Shown here: one piece after another, positions 3,274 to 50,042 of the stretch | How positions within the stretch are numbered: the stretch's first letter is position 1 | Layout of the letters: each line of letters opens with the position of its first letter | From: Mesorhizobium opportunistum WSM2075 | Lineage (GTDB): Bacteria; Pseudomonadota; Alphaproteobacteria; Rhizobiales; Rhizobiaceae | Direction of reading: 5' to 3' | Assembly: GCF_000176035.2 (NCBI RefSeq) | Contig: NC_015675.1 | Span: forward strand, 1,550,001-1,614,000 | Length of the DNA stretch: 64,000 bases | Translations under genes and position numbers: made by a program | The notes under the pieces: generated by a model | The model's database searches: none | What the model saw: only the letters and a program-made list of their open reading frames with translations | What the model was told of the DNA's origin: nothing

Positions 3274-4302
3274 ATGGCTGGATTGAGCAAAGTCGTGGCG
3301 GACAGCCGCGCCAACCTGCCCTTCGTCTATCGCCAGTACAGCGCCGAGCAGCTCAAGCAGGTGCTCTACAAGATGTACCTCATCCGCCGCTTCGAAGAGG
3401 GCGCGGAGGAGTGCTACACGCGCGGCCTCATCCACGGCACCATGCATTTGTCGATCGGCCAGGAGGCCAGCGCCATGGGCATCTGCATGCCGCTTGGCGA
3501 GGATGACCAGATCACCTCGACCCATCGCGGCCATGGCCACTGCATCGCCAAGGGCGCCGAGGTCAAGCGCATGTTCGCCGAGTTCTTCGGCAAGACCACC
3601 GGCTACTGCAAGGGCCGCGGCGGCTCGATGCACATTGCCGATGTCGGCAAGGGCAATCTCGGCGCCAACGGCATCGTCGGCGGCGGCATTCCGATCGCGG
3701 TGGGGGCAGCGCTCTCCTCCAAGAGGATGAAAACCGGCAAGGTTGTCGTGTCCTTCTTCGGCGACGGCGCCAACAATGAAGGCGCCTTCCACGAGGCGCT
3801 CAACATGGCGGCGATCTGGAAGCTGCCCGTCATTTTCGTCTGCGAGAACAATGGCTACGGCATGTCGACGTCGACGGCTCGCTCGACCGCGGTCAAGAAC
3901 ATCGCCGACCGCGCCGCCGCTTATTCGATGCCGGGCGTCATCGTCAACGGCAACATCTTCTCCGAGGTGGCCGAGGCGTCCTACAAGGCCATCGAGCGTG
4001 CCCGTGCAGGCGAGGGGCCGACGCTGATCGAATCCAAGACGTACCGTCATCGCGGCCATTCCAAGAGCGACCGCAACCGCTATCGCACCAAGGAGGAGAT
4101 CGAGGACTGGATGTCGAACCGCGACCCGATCACGCTGTTCGAAAACGAGCTGCGCGAATTCGGCTTCATCGACGACAAGGGCATCGAGGCCATCCGCGAT
4201 GCGGTGGCGCGGGAAATCGCCGACGGCATCGAATTCGCCAAGGCAAGTCCGTCGCCGGACATCAGCGAGACCGGAAATTATGTCTATACGGAGCAGGCGT
4301 GA
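3274..4302 (+). CDS. thiamine-dependent dehydrogenase E1 component, alpha subunit (acetoin/pyruvate type)
   Basis: A 342-residue alpha chain of a heterotetrameric E1. It carries the thiamine-diphosphate signature beginning [15 protein letters not shown] and closed by the NN of CENNGYG. The phosphorylation-loop equivalent [12 protein letters not shown] and the late [10 protein letters not shown] block are also present. With the beta chain it would decarboxylate a 2-oxo acid, or cleave acetoin, and pass the acyl group to the lipoyl E2. Spacing from the SAF oxidoreductase is two bases, and its stop overlaps the beta-subunit start as TGATG. Acetoin versus pyruvate versus another substrate cannot be decided from sequence alone. 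Confidence 0.85.
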
Positions 4303-44498: not shown

Positions 44499-44562
44499 CC
44501 TCGGCCCGCAAGCGAACCGCAATGCCAGAGGGCATGACCCTGCTCGGCGGATTCAGGCCGGG

Positions 44563-45636
44563 TCAGCGTGCGTGCCAGGTCGATCCGTCCGCGGCGAAGA
44601 GATGCAGGGCGGAGATGTCGAACTTCAGCCGAACGGTATCGCCCGGCTTGACGCTCGAGAGCCCGCGATCTTGTGCCGTAACCTGCGTCCCATCGGCGAG
44701 CCGCGCATAGACGAGCGTTCGCTCGCCAAGGCGCTCGACAACGGTGGCCGTGGCGGATGCATCTTCGCCGTCGGAGACGACAGTCAGCGATTCCGGCCGC
44801 ACTCCCAGTTCGCGCCAATCCATGTTGGACGGCGCGCCAGGAAGTTCGACGATCGATCCATCCGTCAAGCGCGCATTGAGCCTGTCGCCTGAGCCCGAAA
44901 CCGTAACGGGCAGAATGTTCATCGCCGGAGATCCGACGAAGGTCGCGACGAAGCGCGATGCCGGACGTGCATAGACCTCGTCGGGTCTTCCCATCTGCTC
45001 TATCCGGCAGTCGTTGAGGATCACAATACGGTCGGCGAGGGTCATCGCTTCCACCTGGTCGTGGGTGACGTAGATCATCGTCGACTTCAAACGTTGATGC
45101 AGCTCGGCAAGCTCGACGCGCGTACGGGCCCGAAGCGCCGCGTCCAGATTGGAGAGCGGCTCGTCGAACAGGAATGCCTTGGGCTCCTTGACGATTGCCC
45201 GCCCGATGGCCACGCGCTGGCGCTGCCCGCCGGAGAGCTGCGACGGCCGCCGATTGAGCAGCGCTTCGATCTCCAGGATGCGCGCAGCCTCAGCGATCCG
45301 CTGGCGTATGACATCCGGCGCGACACGAATGTTCCTCAGCCCAAAGGCCATGTTCTCCGCGACTGTCATATGTGGATAAAGCGCATAGTTCTGGAAGACC
45401 ATCGCAACGTTGCGCCTGCCCGGCGCCAGGTTCTCCGAGCGCACCCCGTCGATCGTCAGCGTGCCCTCGTCAATGCTTTCGAGGCCGGCGATCATCCGTA
45501 ACAGCGTCGTCTTGCCAGAACCGGACGGACCGAGAAACACGACCAGCTCTCCTGGTTCAATGTCCAGGCTGACGCCGCGGATCACTTCGACTGCGCCAAA
45601 GTGCTTTGATACGCCCGACAGCGCGATTCCCGTCAT
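44563..45636 (-). CDS. ABC transporter ATP-binding protein (UgpC/MalK-like)
   Basis: A 357-residue ATPase: GPSGSGKTT, LSGGQRQRVAIGRAIV, AFLFDEPLSNLD and VTHDQVEAMTLADR, with a C-terminal TOBE/regulatory domain. It completes the arabino-oligosaccharide importer although it is encoded convergently. A CGG-N7-CCc site 30 bases upstream of its start joins it to the same regulon. ATG 45636 is chosen because GGAGGAAACAAGGA lies upstream of it; ATG 45660 would overlap the operator more closely. Confidence 0.87.
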   Translation of the reverse strand: MTGIALSGVSKHFGAVEVIRGVSLDIEPGELVVFLGPSGSGKTTLLRMIAGLESIDEGTLTIDGVRSENLAPGRRNVAMVFQNYALYPHMTVAENMAFGLRNIRVAPDVIRQRIAEAARILEIEALLNRRPSQLSGGQRQRVAIGRAIVKEPKAFLFDEPLSNLDAALRARTRVELAELHQRLKSTMIYVTHDQVEAMTLADRIVILNDCRIEQMGRPDEVYARPASRFVATFVGSPAMNILPVTVSGSGDRLNARLTDGSIVELPGAPSNMDWRELGVRPESLTVVSDGEDASATATVVERLGERTLVYARLADGTQVTAQDRGLSSVKPGDTVRLKFDISALHLFAADGSTWHAR

Positions 45637-45933: not shown

Positions 45934-45979
45934 TGGTGATCCCGACAGGAATCGAACCTGTGACCTACAGATTAGGAAT
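45934..45979. other. attachment-site repeat, partial copy of tRNA-Arg(CCT)
   Basis: A 46-base sequence identical to the 3' part of the tRNA-Arg gene (48684-48729), from the anticodon loop through CCA. It has no 5' half, so it is not a functional tRNA. It marks the far end of an integrated element, most likely the original tRNA 3' end displaced by insertion. Confidence 0.9.
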
Positions 45980-46362
45980 ATGATTTCCGCCAAAAAACAC
46001 AATAAAATCAATATCTTGATGGGCGTCATTTCCATTCTACGGGATTCTACAGAATTGTAGCGTTGTACTAACCAGCGTTGTCCAGATTATCTGGACGTCA
46101 ATCGCCTATCGCGCTCAATGAACGGGGCTCAGGGATAAGACCATGAAGCGCAGCGAGCCGCTGCGAGGTAGACGAAGGTCGACGCGGGAGCGCCGGCTAA
46201 ACCCTCACCGTCATCCCAGACGAGATGAACGATAATGACGAGCCAAGACTTCACGGCGAGGCCGGTCGTGCGCCACTCAGCCAGTGAGGGCTTGGCGAGG
46301 TCAGAAGGCGATCTTTCTTCGCAACGGCCGTCATGTTGACCAATTGATCCGTCGGGAAACGA
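45980..46362. other. left non-coding end of the island
   Basis: No gene I can support. ATTCTAC occurs at 46034-46040 and 46044-46050, one helical turn apart, and CTACAGAATTGTAG at 46047-46060 is nearly palindromic. These could be recombinase arm sites. A leftward reading frame at 46129-46374 (81 codons) has no recognised domain and runs into the inverted repeat. Confidence 0.4.
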
Positions 46363-46390
46363 GCTAGTGGTCAAAACTTGGACGCTTGAT
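46363..46390. repeat. left inverted repeat flanking the ATPase-nuclease gene
   Basis: Begins GCTAGTGGTCAAA and continues to GACGCTTGAT. It matches the complement of 48244-48270 over about 27 positions with a few mismatches and one gap; the outer 13 bases are perfect. The pair encloses the gene like transposon ends, but no transposase is present. Confidence 0.7.
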
Positions 46391-46508
46391 ACCCGAAACG
46401 GAATACCGCTGCCGACCTCCTTACGGTCGTTCGGGATCCTTCCTTCGCCTACTACAACTTGCCATTGGTCAGTCAGCCGCCGCTGGCGGGGATGCGGAAA
46501 ACGAACGT

Positions 46509-48062
46509 ATGGTAAAAGTCCAAGCCGCTATCTACAGACTCTCCCTATCCCATCCCGTTTTCCGATGCCATATAGGCGATGAAATAACGGGGGCAACGTT
46601 GAAAATAAACGAACTAAAAGGGCGCTCTGCCCATCTCACTAACCTGAACAACATCAACGTAATTATGGGTCGCAACGGCGCGGGAAAGAGCCGCTTCCTT
46701 CGTGACATCGAGGAAGTGACCAGCCAGAATAAGCAACTCTTTTATTTTCGCTATGTCAGCCCTGAACGGGCTGGCTCATTCAAGCGCGATGGTTCCGTCC
46801 TCACAAATATGAGTAATGACCCCACTTGGCTGCGGCAAGTACGGGCAGTTAATCAGGCCAACAACTTCAAAGCCGCATCGGCGATGCTGTTCCGCGAAGC
46901 CGAGACGCTTTATCTACGTCGCCTAGCCAGCACGCCAGAAATCCGAATGGACCCCACGCGCAACTTCCAGACAGATCGGCTGAGTAAGGTAAATCAGCTG
47001 CTCACCAATATCTCGCTTGAGATGGGTAACGCCGATTTCGAGTTTCGTTCGCTGACCGATGGCCAGCTAGTAATCCCAGACCAAATCAGCAGCGGCGAAT
47101 CGGAAGCCGTAGCTCTGGCTTCCGAGATTCTCTATTTCTTTGATACGATAGACCCTGCGAAGACGAATATACTGCTCCTTGATGAGCCGGACGTGCACCT
47201 TCACCCCGATCTCCAAGCACGGCTCGGTAAGCTGATCATCGCCATGCTGGACGAGTTCAAGAGCTACGCGGAAAGCATTGCTGTATGCCTCGCCACGCAT
47301 AGCAGCCCGTTGGTCTGTTCTCTCGCGGATTCGCAATATGTTTCGATCGGCACCAAGAGCTTCGCGGTCGATACGGTTGAACTCAAACCGACCAGCGCCG
47401 AGCTTCGCAAGGTTGCCCCATTCTTCGGCCACCCCCTTTCACTTTCGCTAAGCGAAGACGCGGCGTTGATCCTCGAAGGCGAGGACGACGAACGCGTTTG
47501 GCAGCAGGCTGCGCGAACGTCGCAGGGCCGGATCAAGGTCTTTCCGGTGCTGGCCGGCAGCGTAGACCAGCAGGGCGAACTAGAGACCTTCTGTGTCAAT
47601 CTGCTCGATACGCTCTATGACAACCCGGTCGCCTTTTCCCTTCGCGACGGCGACGGCGTGGTTGATCAACCGCTCGAACATCGCCCACCTATCAAGCGCT
47701 ACCGCCTGCAATGCTATGCAATTGAAAACGCCCTTTTGACTGACCCCTGCCTTGCCGTGATGGGCACGACCTGGGAGGGTTTTGTCGCTGCGGCATTGAA
47801 ATGGGAGGCTGAAAATCAGGGACACGCAGATAGAACGCTCATTAACGAGCTTGCCGAGTCCAATGATCGGCTGCGGCACAAGAAAATCAAGAAGGTCCGC
47901 CAGCTCGTCTGTGCCGTGCTCGAGTGCAAGAAGCCTTGGGAGGTCGTGGTTGGTCAGGCCATCGGAGCGCTAACGAACGAGGATCTCGCAAGTTCGAACA
48001 TGCTGATTGATTTCCTCGGGGCGGAAATGGTCAGCGACATCATCTTCAGGAACGGGGCATGA
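46509..48062 (+). CDS. ABC-type ATPase with C-terminal TOPRIM-like domain, candidate anti-phage protein
   Basis: A 517-residue protein. The ATPase part has Walker A GRNGAGKS at 54-61, the signature SSGESEAVAL near 195, Walker B ILLLDEPDVHLHPD near 221-234 and the switch histidine in ATHSSP near 264. The C-terminal part has ALILEGEDDERVW, with Glu323 and nearby acidic residues, and SLRDGDG, with Asp380 and Asp382. This is the Glu plus DxD pattern of TOPRIM/DUF4435 nucleases. Architecture resembles OLD nucleases and fused PARIS AriA-AriB proteins. ATG 46509 is preferred to TTG 46386, which lies in the inverted repeat. Abortive-infection function is inference. Confidence 0.75.
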   Translation: MVKVQAAIYRLSLSHPVFRCHIGDEITGATLKINELKGRSAHLTNLNNINVIMGRNGAGKSRFLRDIEEVTSQNKQLFYFRYVSPERAGSFKRDGSVLTNMSNDPTWLRQVRAVNQANNFKAASAMLFREAETLYLRRLASTPEIRMDPTRNFQTDRLSKVNQLLTNISLEMGNADFEFRSLTDGQLVIPDQISSGESEAVALASEILYFFDTIDPAKTNILLLDEPDVHLHPDLQARLGKLIIAMLDEFKSYAESIAVCLATHSSPLVCSLADSQYVSIGTKSFAVDTVELKPTSAELRKVAPFFGHPLSLSLSEDAALILEGEDDERVWQQAARTSQGRIKVFPVLAGSVDQQGELETFCVNLLDTLYDNPVAFSLRDGDGVVDQPLEHRPPIKRYRLQCYAIENALLTDPCLAVMGTTWEGFVAAALKWEAENQGHADRTLINELAESNDRLRHKKIKKVRQLVCAVLECKKPWEVVVGQAIGALTNEDLASSNMLIDFLGAEMVSDIIFRNGA

Positions 48063-48243
48063 GCAACATTGAATAGCGCGAGACCTCGATCTTAGCTGCT
48101 ATCAAGGATCAGCCAGTGTTGGCTGTCCGCCGCCTGTTCCTACCCGGCGCAATTCGTTGAAGAGATGAACGGCAGCTTTCCCGGCCTAACGGCCCGAAAC
48201 TTGCTGGTCTGCTTCCCACGGTGAGCGGGCCTACGGCTCCTGA

Positions 48244-48270
48244 ACCAAGCGTCAGAGTTTGACCACTAGC
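48244..48270. repeat. right inverted repeat flanking the ATPase-nuclease gene
   Basis: Ends TTTGACCACTAGC (48258-48270), the exact complement of 46363-46375, preceded by CAAGCGTCAG that pairs with the inner part of the left copy. Together they bracket about 1.9 kb. Confidence 0.7.
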
Positions 48271-48550
48271 GACTGGCAAAGAGTCTTCGCAACTGGCCGG
48301 GCTAATGGTGACGAAAGGGCCCTCCTGAGACTCGCGTTTGGCCGACGTAATCTACGAAGCAGTACGCGGCGATTCCTTCGTTTCCAAATTGAATGGGTGG
48401 CCTCTTCCTTTAAGACACTGGAGCGGGGGAAGGAAGCTGTGGTGCCGGTTCGTTGCGTCTCGGGCGATATGCCTTGTCAGCGAGACATCGTCAATGACCG
48501 GTCGAGACATGCAACTGAAGCTGTCAAACCCCGTCAAGCAGTTCTACGCA

Positions 48551-48580
48551 AATCCGTAGAATGGCTTCATTCTACGGATT
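48551..48580. repeat. perfect 12-bp inverted repeat near the tRNA-proximal island end
   Basis: AATCCGTAGAAT, loop GGCTTC, ATTCTACGGATT. Its ATTCTAC core is the same word found twice at the opposite island end. It could be a recombinase arm site, or a terminator for the region. Confidence 0.6.
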
Positions 48581-48683
48581 CTTGGTGATGGAAAGTGGCG
48601 AAATTCACGGCTATTCACGTAGAATGGCGATCGGACCCTTTCGGGTCTGACCGCCTAATCAATTGATTTAACATGGTTTTTCG

Positions 48684-48760
48684 TGGTGATCCCGACAGGA
48701 ATCGAACCTGTGACCTACAGATTAGGAATCTGCCGCTCTATCCTACTGAGCTACGGGACC
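48684..48760 (-). tRNA. tRNA-Arg(CCT)
   Basis: A complete 77-nucleotide tRNA including an encoded CCA. On the minus strand the acceptor GGTCCCG pairs with CGGGATC, with one G-U. The D stem is GCTC/GAGC, the anticodon stem GCAGA/TCTGT with loop TTCCTAA (anticodon CCT), and the T arm ACAGG-TTCGATT-CCTGT. It reads AGG codons. Its 3' 46 bases are duplicated at 45934-45979, so the gene is the island integration site and was restored by it. Confidence 0.95.
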
Positions 48761-48878: not shown

Positions 48879-50042
48879 TCAGGCGGCCAGCGCGGTTTCG
48901 GCCAGTTTCACCCAGTAGCTCATGCCGTGCGGGATGGCCTCGTCGTTGAAATCATAGGCCGGGTTGTGGAGGCCGGCGGTGTCGCCATTGCCGATGAAGA
49001 TGAAGGCTCCGGGGCGGGCTTCCAGCATGTAGGAGAAGTCCTCGCCGCCCATCACCGGCTGGATGCCGCGGTGGACATGGGCGTCGCCGGCGACGTTGGC
49101 CGCGATGTCGCTGGCGAACACCGTCTCTTCCGCGTGGTTGAAGGTCACTGGGTAATTGGCCTGGTAGTCGACCTCGATCTTGGCGCCGAAGGCGATCGCC
49201 AGCCCTTCGCAGATGGTGCGGATGCGCTCTTCGGACTTCTTGGCGATTTCCTTGCGCAAGGTGCGCACCGTGCCGGCGATCTCGGCCGATTCCGGAATGA
49301 TGTTGTAGGCATCGCCGGCATGGAACTTGGTCACCGACACCACCACCGCCTCGACCGGATCGGTGCTGCGCGAAGCGATGGTCTGCAGCGCGCCGACCAG
49401 CTGGCTGGTGATGACGATCGGGTCGATCGTGCCGTGCGGCATGGCCGCGTGGCCGCCGCGGCCCTTCACGGTGATGGTGAATTCGGCCGTCGCCGCCATG
49501 ATCGGGCCCGGCCGGATCGCGAACTGGCCGACAGGCAGGCCCGGCATGTTGTGCATGCCGAACACCTTGGAGATGTCGAAGCGCTCCATCATGCCGTCCT
49601 TGACCATCTCGTTGCCGCCGCCGCCGCCTTCCTCGGCCGGCTGGAAGATCACCGCCACGGAGCCCGCGAAATTGCGTGTTTCGGCGAGATATTTCGCCGC
49701 GCCCAGAAGCATCGCCGTGTGGCCGTCATGACCGCAGGCGTGCATCTTGCCGGGAACGGTCGAAGCGTAAGGCTTGCCGGTGATCTCGTTGAGCGGCAGC
49801 GCATCCATGTCGGCGCGCAGGCCGATGGTGGCGCCGTCGCCCTGGCGGCCACGAATGATGCCAACGACGCCGGTCTTGCCGAGGCCGGTCACCACGTCGT
49901 CGCAGCCGAACTCCTTCAGCTTCTCGGTCACGAAGGCGGCGGTCTTGAAGACGTCGAAGTTCAGTTCTGGCGTCTGGTGCAGGTGTTGGCGCCAGCCGGC
50001 GACTTCGTCCTGCATCTCGGCGGCTCGGTTCAGGATTGGCAT
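48879..50042 (-). CDS. M20-family amidohydrolase (hippurate hydrolase/N-acyl amino acid deacylase type)
   Basis: A 387-residue metallopeptidase-fold enzyme. The zinc motifs are GLRADMDALPLNE, HACGHDGHTAML and FQPAEEGGGGG with the catalytic glutamate, followed by the GRGGHAAMPH dimerisation block and VMGGEDFSYML near the end. Family members remove acyl groups from N-acyl or N-benzoyl amino acids. ATG 50042 gives the normal length. It is divergent from the D,D-carboxypeptidase gene and has no operon partner. Confidence 0.85.
   Translation of the reverse strand: MPILNRAAEMQDEVAGWRQHLHQTPELNFDVFKTAAFVTEKLKEFGCDDVVTGLGKTGVVGIIRGRQGDGATIGLRADMDALPLNEITGKPYASTVPGKMHACGHDGHTAMLLGAAKYLAETRNFAGSVAVIFQPAEEGGGGGNEMVKDGMMERFDISKVFGMHNMPGLPVGQFAIRPGPIMAATAEFTITVKGRGGHAAMPHGTIDPIVITSQLVGALQTIASRSTDPVEAVVVSVTKFHAGDAYNIIPESAEIAGTVRTLRKEIAKKSEERIRTICEGLAIAFGAKIEVDYQANYPVTFNHAEETVFASDIAANVAGDAHVHRGIQPVMGGEDFSYMLEARPGAFIFIGNGDTAGLHNPAYDFNDEAIPHGMSYWVKLAETALAA

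Follow-up and report, generated by a model that had tools for sequence, protein, structure and literature searches.

A probable IS630-type cassette with a compact AriA/AriB-like gene nested in a tRNA-Arg(CCT) island of Mesorhizobium opportunistum WSM2075

The 2.75-kb insertion at the tRNA-Arg(CCT) gene of Mesorhizobium opportunistum WSM2075 probably consists of three nested layers: a tRNA island, within it a cassette of 1906 bp that has IS630-type ends, and within the cassette a single passenger gene for a compact AriA/AriB-like protein. The window, that is the whole stretch of DNA analysed, comprises 64,000 nt (NC_015675.1, positions 1,550,001-1,614,000) and all positions are given in window coordinates. 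An earlier note on this DNA had described a tRNA-bounded insertion with one candidate anti-phage ATPase-nuclease gene. The inverted pair of cassette ends at 46364 and 48269 was absent from that note and was revealed by aligning the island with its counterpart in G034, another genome of the genus.

The borders of the island were confirmed as previously proposed, with a perfect 46-bp repeat of the 3' half of the tRNA gene. The tRNA-Arg(CCT) gene (48684-48760, minus strand) was the sole tRNA detected by ARAGORN in the window; its 3' half at 48684-48729 forms the proximal repeat copy, and an att-like distal copy was located at 45934-45979 by repeat search and by alignment with G034. The two copies are identical over 46 nt (98% over 49 nt) with a spacing of 2750, and genome-wide the repeat was present at an identity of at least 98% in these two places only; four further matches were shorter, at 26-34 nt. 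As in other tRNA genomic islands, the 3' end of the tRNA is directly repeated at the distal border. The insert departs from such islands in that no integrase of its own was found among the listed island open reading frames (ORFs). Four integrases encoded by islands at this tRNA were used as tblastn queries against the two stretches outside the cassette, with a best E value of 0.28. The GC content of 500-base segments was 0.51-0.58 over 46000-48499, compared to 0.63-0.66 at 44500-45499 and 49000-49999. The island interior (45980-48683) is common to G034, where the insert is located at the same tRNA with 96.7% identity over 2383 columns; the right flank past the tRNA was 92.4% identical over 925 columns and the left flank did not align. 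Because the alignment with G034 begins one base before the repeat, the left boundary of the island is regarded as real. A weak inverted repeat (26 nt, 73%) with arms at 46032-46057 and 48539-48564 possibly represents integrase arm sites, or it could be due to chance.

The locus query was matched in all 61 genomes of the genus. Two repeat copies were found in nine further fetched genomes, 1.8, 7.5, 9.7, 10, 20, 22, 30, 40 and 87 kb apart, and the 30 tRNA-adjacent flanks that were compared fell into 22 sequence groups; tRNA-Arg(CCT) is a hot spot of island insertion. Putative tyrosine integrase genes (recognized by eye and from a known motif) were located beside the distal repeat in three islands, the 1.8-kb island of G016 contained only an apparent integrase fragment as judged by eye, and empty sites could be identified for two islands, those of G030 and G062. 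Ten proteins from islands at this locus, picked by eye, were scanned against PADLOC and six of them matched at 1e-5 or better. These were an AbiTii-like protein in the G075 island (1.5e-39; locus L248), a BrxHI/HmaA-type helicase (3.9e-101) and an HmaB-type methylase (3.6e-30) that form BREX/Hma-like genes in the G036 island (L253), a cytosine methylase (2.8e-89) with an NsnA/PD-T4-2-type protein (4.9e-49) in the G019 island (L255), and a weak cyclase match in the G031 island (1.9e-6). It is possible that the locus is a defence hot spot.

Mobile insertion cassettes (MICs) have insertion-sequence-like ends round passenger genes and contain no transposase. The element nested in the island, a probable IS630-type cassette of this kind, extends over 46364-48269 (plus strand). 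Its left terminal inverted repeat (46364-46392, plus strand) begins with CTAG and its right one (48241-48269, minus strand) finishes with CTAG. The 29-base terminal repeat is common to the two ends, which differ just inside it, and both subterminal sequences (left, 46393-46420, plus strand; right, 48200-48240, minus strand) are conserved in other cassettes. The cassette ends were not among the five longest repeats shown by an ungapped inverted-repeat search because the left end in the window has an extra base, and a guessed end at no more than two mismatches was found in one of 199 genomes of the order, the window's own. It was longer DNA queries, unlike short end patterns, that revealed the cassette family: the non-coding flanks matched in 7 and 10 of the 61 genus genomes, often paired round different DNA. 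In a plasmid search with the non-coding island flanks, the left flank gave no match and the right flank four short ones, which were cassette ends.

A 29-base end pattern with three mismatches was found in 19/61 genus genomes and the reversed control in none; a looser pattern with two mismatches was found in 12/297 genomes of the family, in six of 109 genera, again with a control of zero. The terminal inverted repeats are thus conserved in many copies, as expected for a MIC. Among 65 stretches examined there were 39 convergent end pairs, a few of them overlapping or duplicate, and CTAG was present on both sides in 23 of these pairs (552-7899 bp), with the copies in the window and in G034 counting as one insertion. 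An end profile built from 44 cassette ends only and run on 12 genomes, chosen mostly for having matches, gave 128 matches; 24 neighbouring pairs less than 9 kb apart were present among the 88 best, of which 20 were convergent, three divergent and one tandem. The passengers were diverse and included epoxide hydrolase with MsrB, DUF1254/DUF1214, DUF5677, AhpC/TSA, cyclases, GNAT, ankyrin-cytochrome c, AraC and TetR regulators, an FGE-type sulfatase factor, methyltransferase, sulfotransferase, glyoxalase, NmrA and DUF2726 proteins. No transposase family was found in the 29 passenger proteins scanned, six of which had no Pfam match; a further cassette ORF outside these 29, of 135 aa in L207, appears IS3-like by eye. 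In the openly accessible literature, nothing was found on IS630-ended passenger cassettes in rhizobia.

Several individual cassettes had features of their own. Pycsar cyclase profiles were matched by two of the cyclase passengers and by a passenger from G020, for which a common cyclase domain may be the only reason, and a 1099-aa passenger (L103:8734-12033) had no match in Pfam (E 0.001) or PADLOC (E 1e-5). At L095:3747-4361 the overlap between two cassette ends is exactly four bases, the CTAG at 3769-3772, as if one cassette had inserted at the border of another. In G084 (L096:9529, L097:10806 and L164:52) several cassette ends close to the ends of contigs were cut at one inner base and continued into TGTGTGGATGCCCCC; a further repeated element probably has the cassette end as its target. 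In G011 a repeat of about 100 bp that finishes near a CTAG adjoins a cassette (L157:2815-2998), and this repeat recurs in many genomes of the genus.

Weaker matches of the end profile pointed to an element of 1152 bp that is present in multiple copies in G389 and the protein of which is a DDE_3 transposase (Pfam, E 1.7e-20), a family that we take to be of IS630 type. One end of this insertion sequence (IS) shares 22/29 positions with the cassette consensus, counted by hand, and the four copies printed had CTAG on both sides. In a transposase search of eight genomes, 11 end-profile matches coincided with transposase 3' ends in three genomes (eight in G389, two in G020 and one in G339), so that the cassette ends match those of an autonomous IS. 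Given that each match is weak alone, it is on this coincidence that the relation between the cassette ends and IS630 rests. An intact relative of the transposase (89%) abuts a cassette in G011. With regard to target sites, PMC2170065 describes duplication of TA on insertion of ISY100, a member of the IS630 family, and cites a title on the 5'-CTAG-3' preference of IS630.

The earlier note had seen one convincing gene in the insertion, and the longest ORF between the repeat copies is indeed 46386-48062 on the plus strand. The length of 517 residues given there, which follows from an ATG at 46509, had to be revised: a TTG start at 46599 (46599-48062, plus strand, 487 aa) is likelier, because the alignment started at column 30 or 31 in 14/19 aligned homologues and residues 1-28 of the structure model had a predicted local distance difference test score (pLDDT) below 50. 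The motifs noticed earlier are present in frame (517-aa numbering): GRNGAGKS, ISSGESE and LLLDEPDVHLHP, presumably Walker A, signature and Walker B, followed by EGEDD (323-327) and RDGD (379-382) in the C-terminal part. The N-terminal domain (46599-47378, plus strand) scored 49.4 bits with AAA_21 (cut-off 27) and 47.2 bits with AAA_15 (cut-off 32.1), as expected for the ATPase of PARIS. The C-terminal domain (47394-48059, plus strand, with EGEDD at 47475-47489 and RDGD at 47643-47654) has an AriB-like TOPRIM fold with AriB as its best structural match, and DUF4435 matched 18/22 members of the protein family at E 0.5 or better (best 8.4e-7). E323 would be the counterpart of the AriB glutamate E26, and R379-D380-G381-D382 would represent the DxD part of TOPRIM. 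Comparison of the C-terminal sequence profile with the PDB gave no credible match, the best being a coat protein (E 0.015). Judged from domains and fold, the protein is expected to be an ATPase-scaffolded, triggered TOPRIM nuclease; it would work like PARIS at most by analogy.

The protein family was found within the genus in G000 and G034 only. Six of the 61 genomes matched in all; the remaining matches were three weak ones to ATPase pieces and one 40% relative that belongs to another family. Among 49 fetched loci and the window, the gene was flanked by a long repeat that overlaps a tRNA in the window and G034 only, and L040 had a 24-nt repeat touching tRNA-Ser. CTAG-anchored inverted ends round the gene were likewise confined to the window and G034 among the 31 places scanned, and the cassette is therefore not the usual vehicle of this gene family. 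In Escherichia coli the gene adjoins the 3' end of guaA in both genomes viewed (2 of 26 carriers; L075:16001-18745); a partial integrase-core pseudogene and a response-regulator gene come after it, and in Vreelandella (L015) the flank matches the guaA region. No direct repeat was found at the E. coli and Vreelandella guaA loci.

The nested arrangement could have arisen and could operate as follows. Islands would insert at tRNA-Arg(CCT) and rebuild the 3' half of the tRNA, and the integrase-less 2.75-kb island would be a remnant or else would owe its movement to an integrase supplied in trans. A related IS630 transposase, likewise in trans, probably moved the transposase-less 1906-bp cassette into a CTAG target, as its ends suggest, and this cassette would be one of a family in the Rhizobiaceae with varied passengers. 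The passenger would be a single-chain AriA/AriB-like protein in which, by analogy with PARIS, the ATPase assembly holds the TOPRIM nuclease inactive until a phage protein, perhaps an anti-restriction protein, triggers it. The freed nuclease activity may then cleave tRNA or some other nucleic acid, bringing growth to a halt. The main mechanistic difference would lie in the fusion, in which sensor and effector stay tethered and no AriB is released.

Several observations count against this explanation. The same-locus comparison suggested in the earlier note showed the same island in G034 and other islands in relatives, whereas no empty site for the window island was found among the tRNA flanks of 30 genomes. 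An empty cassette site, which would reveal a CTAG duplication, was not found in the single case searched, and the exact left end in the window was found at no more than three mismatches in one of 61 genus genomes, namely itself. The other end of the G389 IS has little in common with the cassette ends beyond CTAGTGGT, and the 11 matches coinciding with transposase ends are individually weak (E 6e-4 to 0.024). The window genome contains only broken IS630 pieces, 33-46% identical, and G034 gave no match; since these pieces are broken and divergent, no mobilizer is present now. The phage collection searched yielded no matching relative. As for the protein, DUF4435 scored 12 bits with the whole sequence and 14.5 bits with the C-terminal part alone (cut-off 27), and for this reason it is not filed as a member of PARIS. 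The profile and structure checks proposed earlier favoured AriB for the C-terminal domain, but Foldseek gave no match to that domain at E 0.001 or below (AriB first at 0.014), and the ATPase half did not single out AriA: ABCE1 chains were tied with it in structure comparison and Foldseek ranked GajA and Eco8 first. Overall, the interpretation in the earlier note was supported in part. Our confidence in the three layers was slightly lowered because the ATPase half is not discriminating and no empty cassette site was found.

There is about an even chance that the island arose by decay of an integrative element, with loss of the integrase, and that the cassette was simply taken along, neither layer being mobile today. 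The lack of an integrase match in the insert, the apparent integrase fragment in the small G016 island and the lack of an intact IS630 relative in the window genome all fit such decay, whereas both strains have kept the exact 46-bp repeats intact and the island is more similar between them than the right flank. This is compatible with the three-layer explanation and differs from it in present mobility only. That the protein is instead a DNA nuclease of the OLD, GajA or retron Eco8 type, or a repair-type ATPase, we consider unlikely: the ATPase ranking would suit it, and the C-terminal domain matches AriB best. Least probable is that the paired ends are intergenic or repetitive extragenic palindromic (REP)/Rhizobium intergenic mosaic element (RIME)-like repeats that flank genes by chance without any mobile cassette, since despite the widespread 100-bp repeat beside one cassette, the missing empty site and many ends without a partner within 9 kb in the 12 genomes, neighbouring ends were mostly convergent (20/24), left and right ends have distinct conserved subterminal sequences, CTAG occurs at both ends in 23/39 pairs and 11 end-profile matches lie at the ends of IS630 transposase genes.

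A broader proposal, to which we give even odds, is that the Rhizobiaceae hold a scattered, integron-free pool of IS630-ended cassettes shuttled between CTAG sites by trans-acting transposases, and that in this way a compact AriA/AriB-type nuclease, amounting to a complete immune system in one gene, was brought into a tRNA island as a minimal defence element, doubly nested as 1.9 kb within 2.75 kb. If true, a single defence gene can spread without an integrase or transposase of its own, and the protein would be a small and easily cloned one-chain relative of PARIS for studying sensing and nuclease release when the two are tethered. The cassette end also provides a simple DNA signature for collecting passengers in the Rhizobiaceae, the range of which would then be countable.

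According to PMC9122126, both genes of PARIS are needed, growth stops, Ocr is a trigger and fused single AriAB genes exist; PMC12409363 describes AriB as a TOPRIM ribonuclease that cuts tRNA and is inactive as E26A. The window protein resembles PARIS in combining an ABC-type ATPase with a DUF4435-like TOPRIM domain, and single-gene fusions are among the forms reported, but it is one chain of 487 aa compared to a 694-position AriAB profile, a 464-residue AriA and an AriB with 305-306 residues modelled, and its DUF4435 score is below the cut-off. It shares with the OLD family, Gabija GajA and the retron Eco8 nuclease the order of ATPase and then TOPRIM domain in one chain, but its C-terminal domain appears to match these less well than AriB. 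The cassette is like MICs in its IS-like ends, its passenger gene and its lack of a transposase, and unlike them in having IS630-type ends with CTAG, in its occurrence in the Rhizobiaceae and in the many different passengers of its family. With IS630/Tc1-mariner elements it shares the CTAG at its ends and 22/29 positions of one G389 IS end, whereas the scanned cassettes, unlike these elements, carry no transposase inside.
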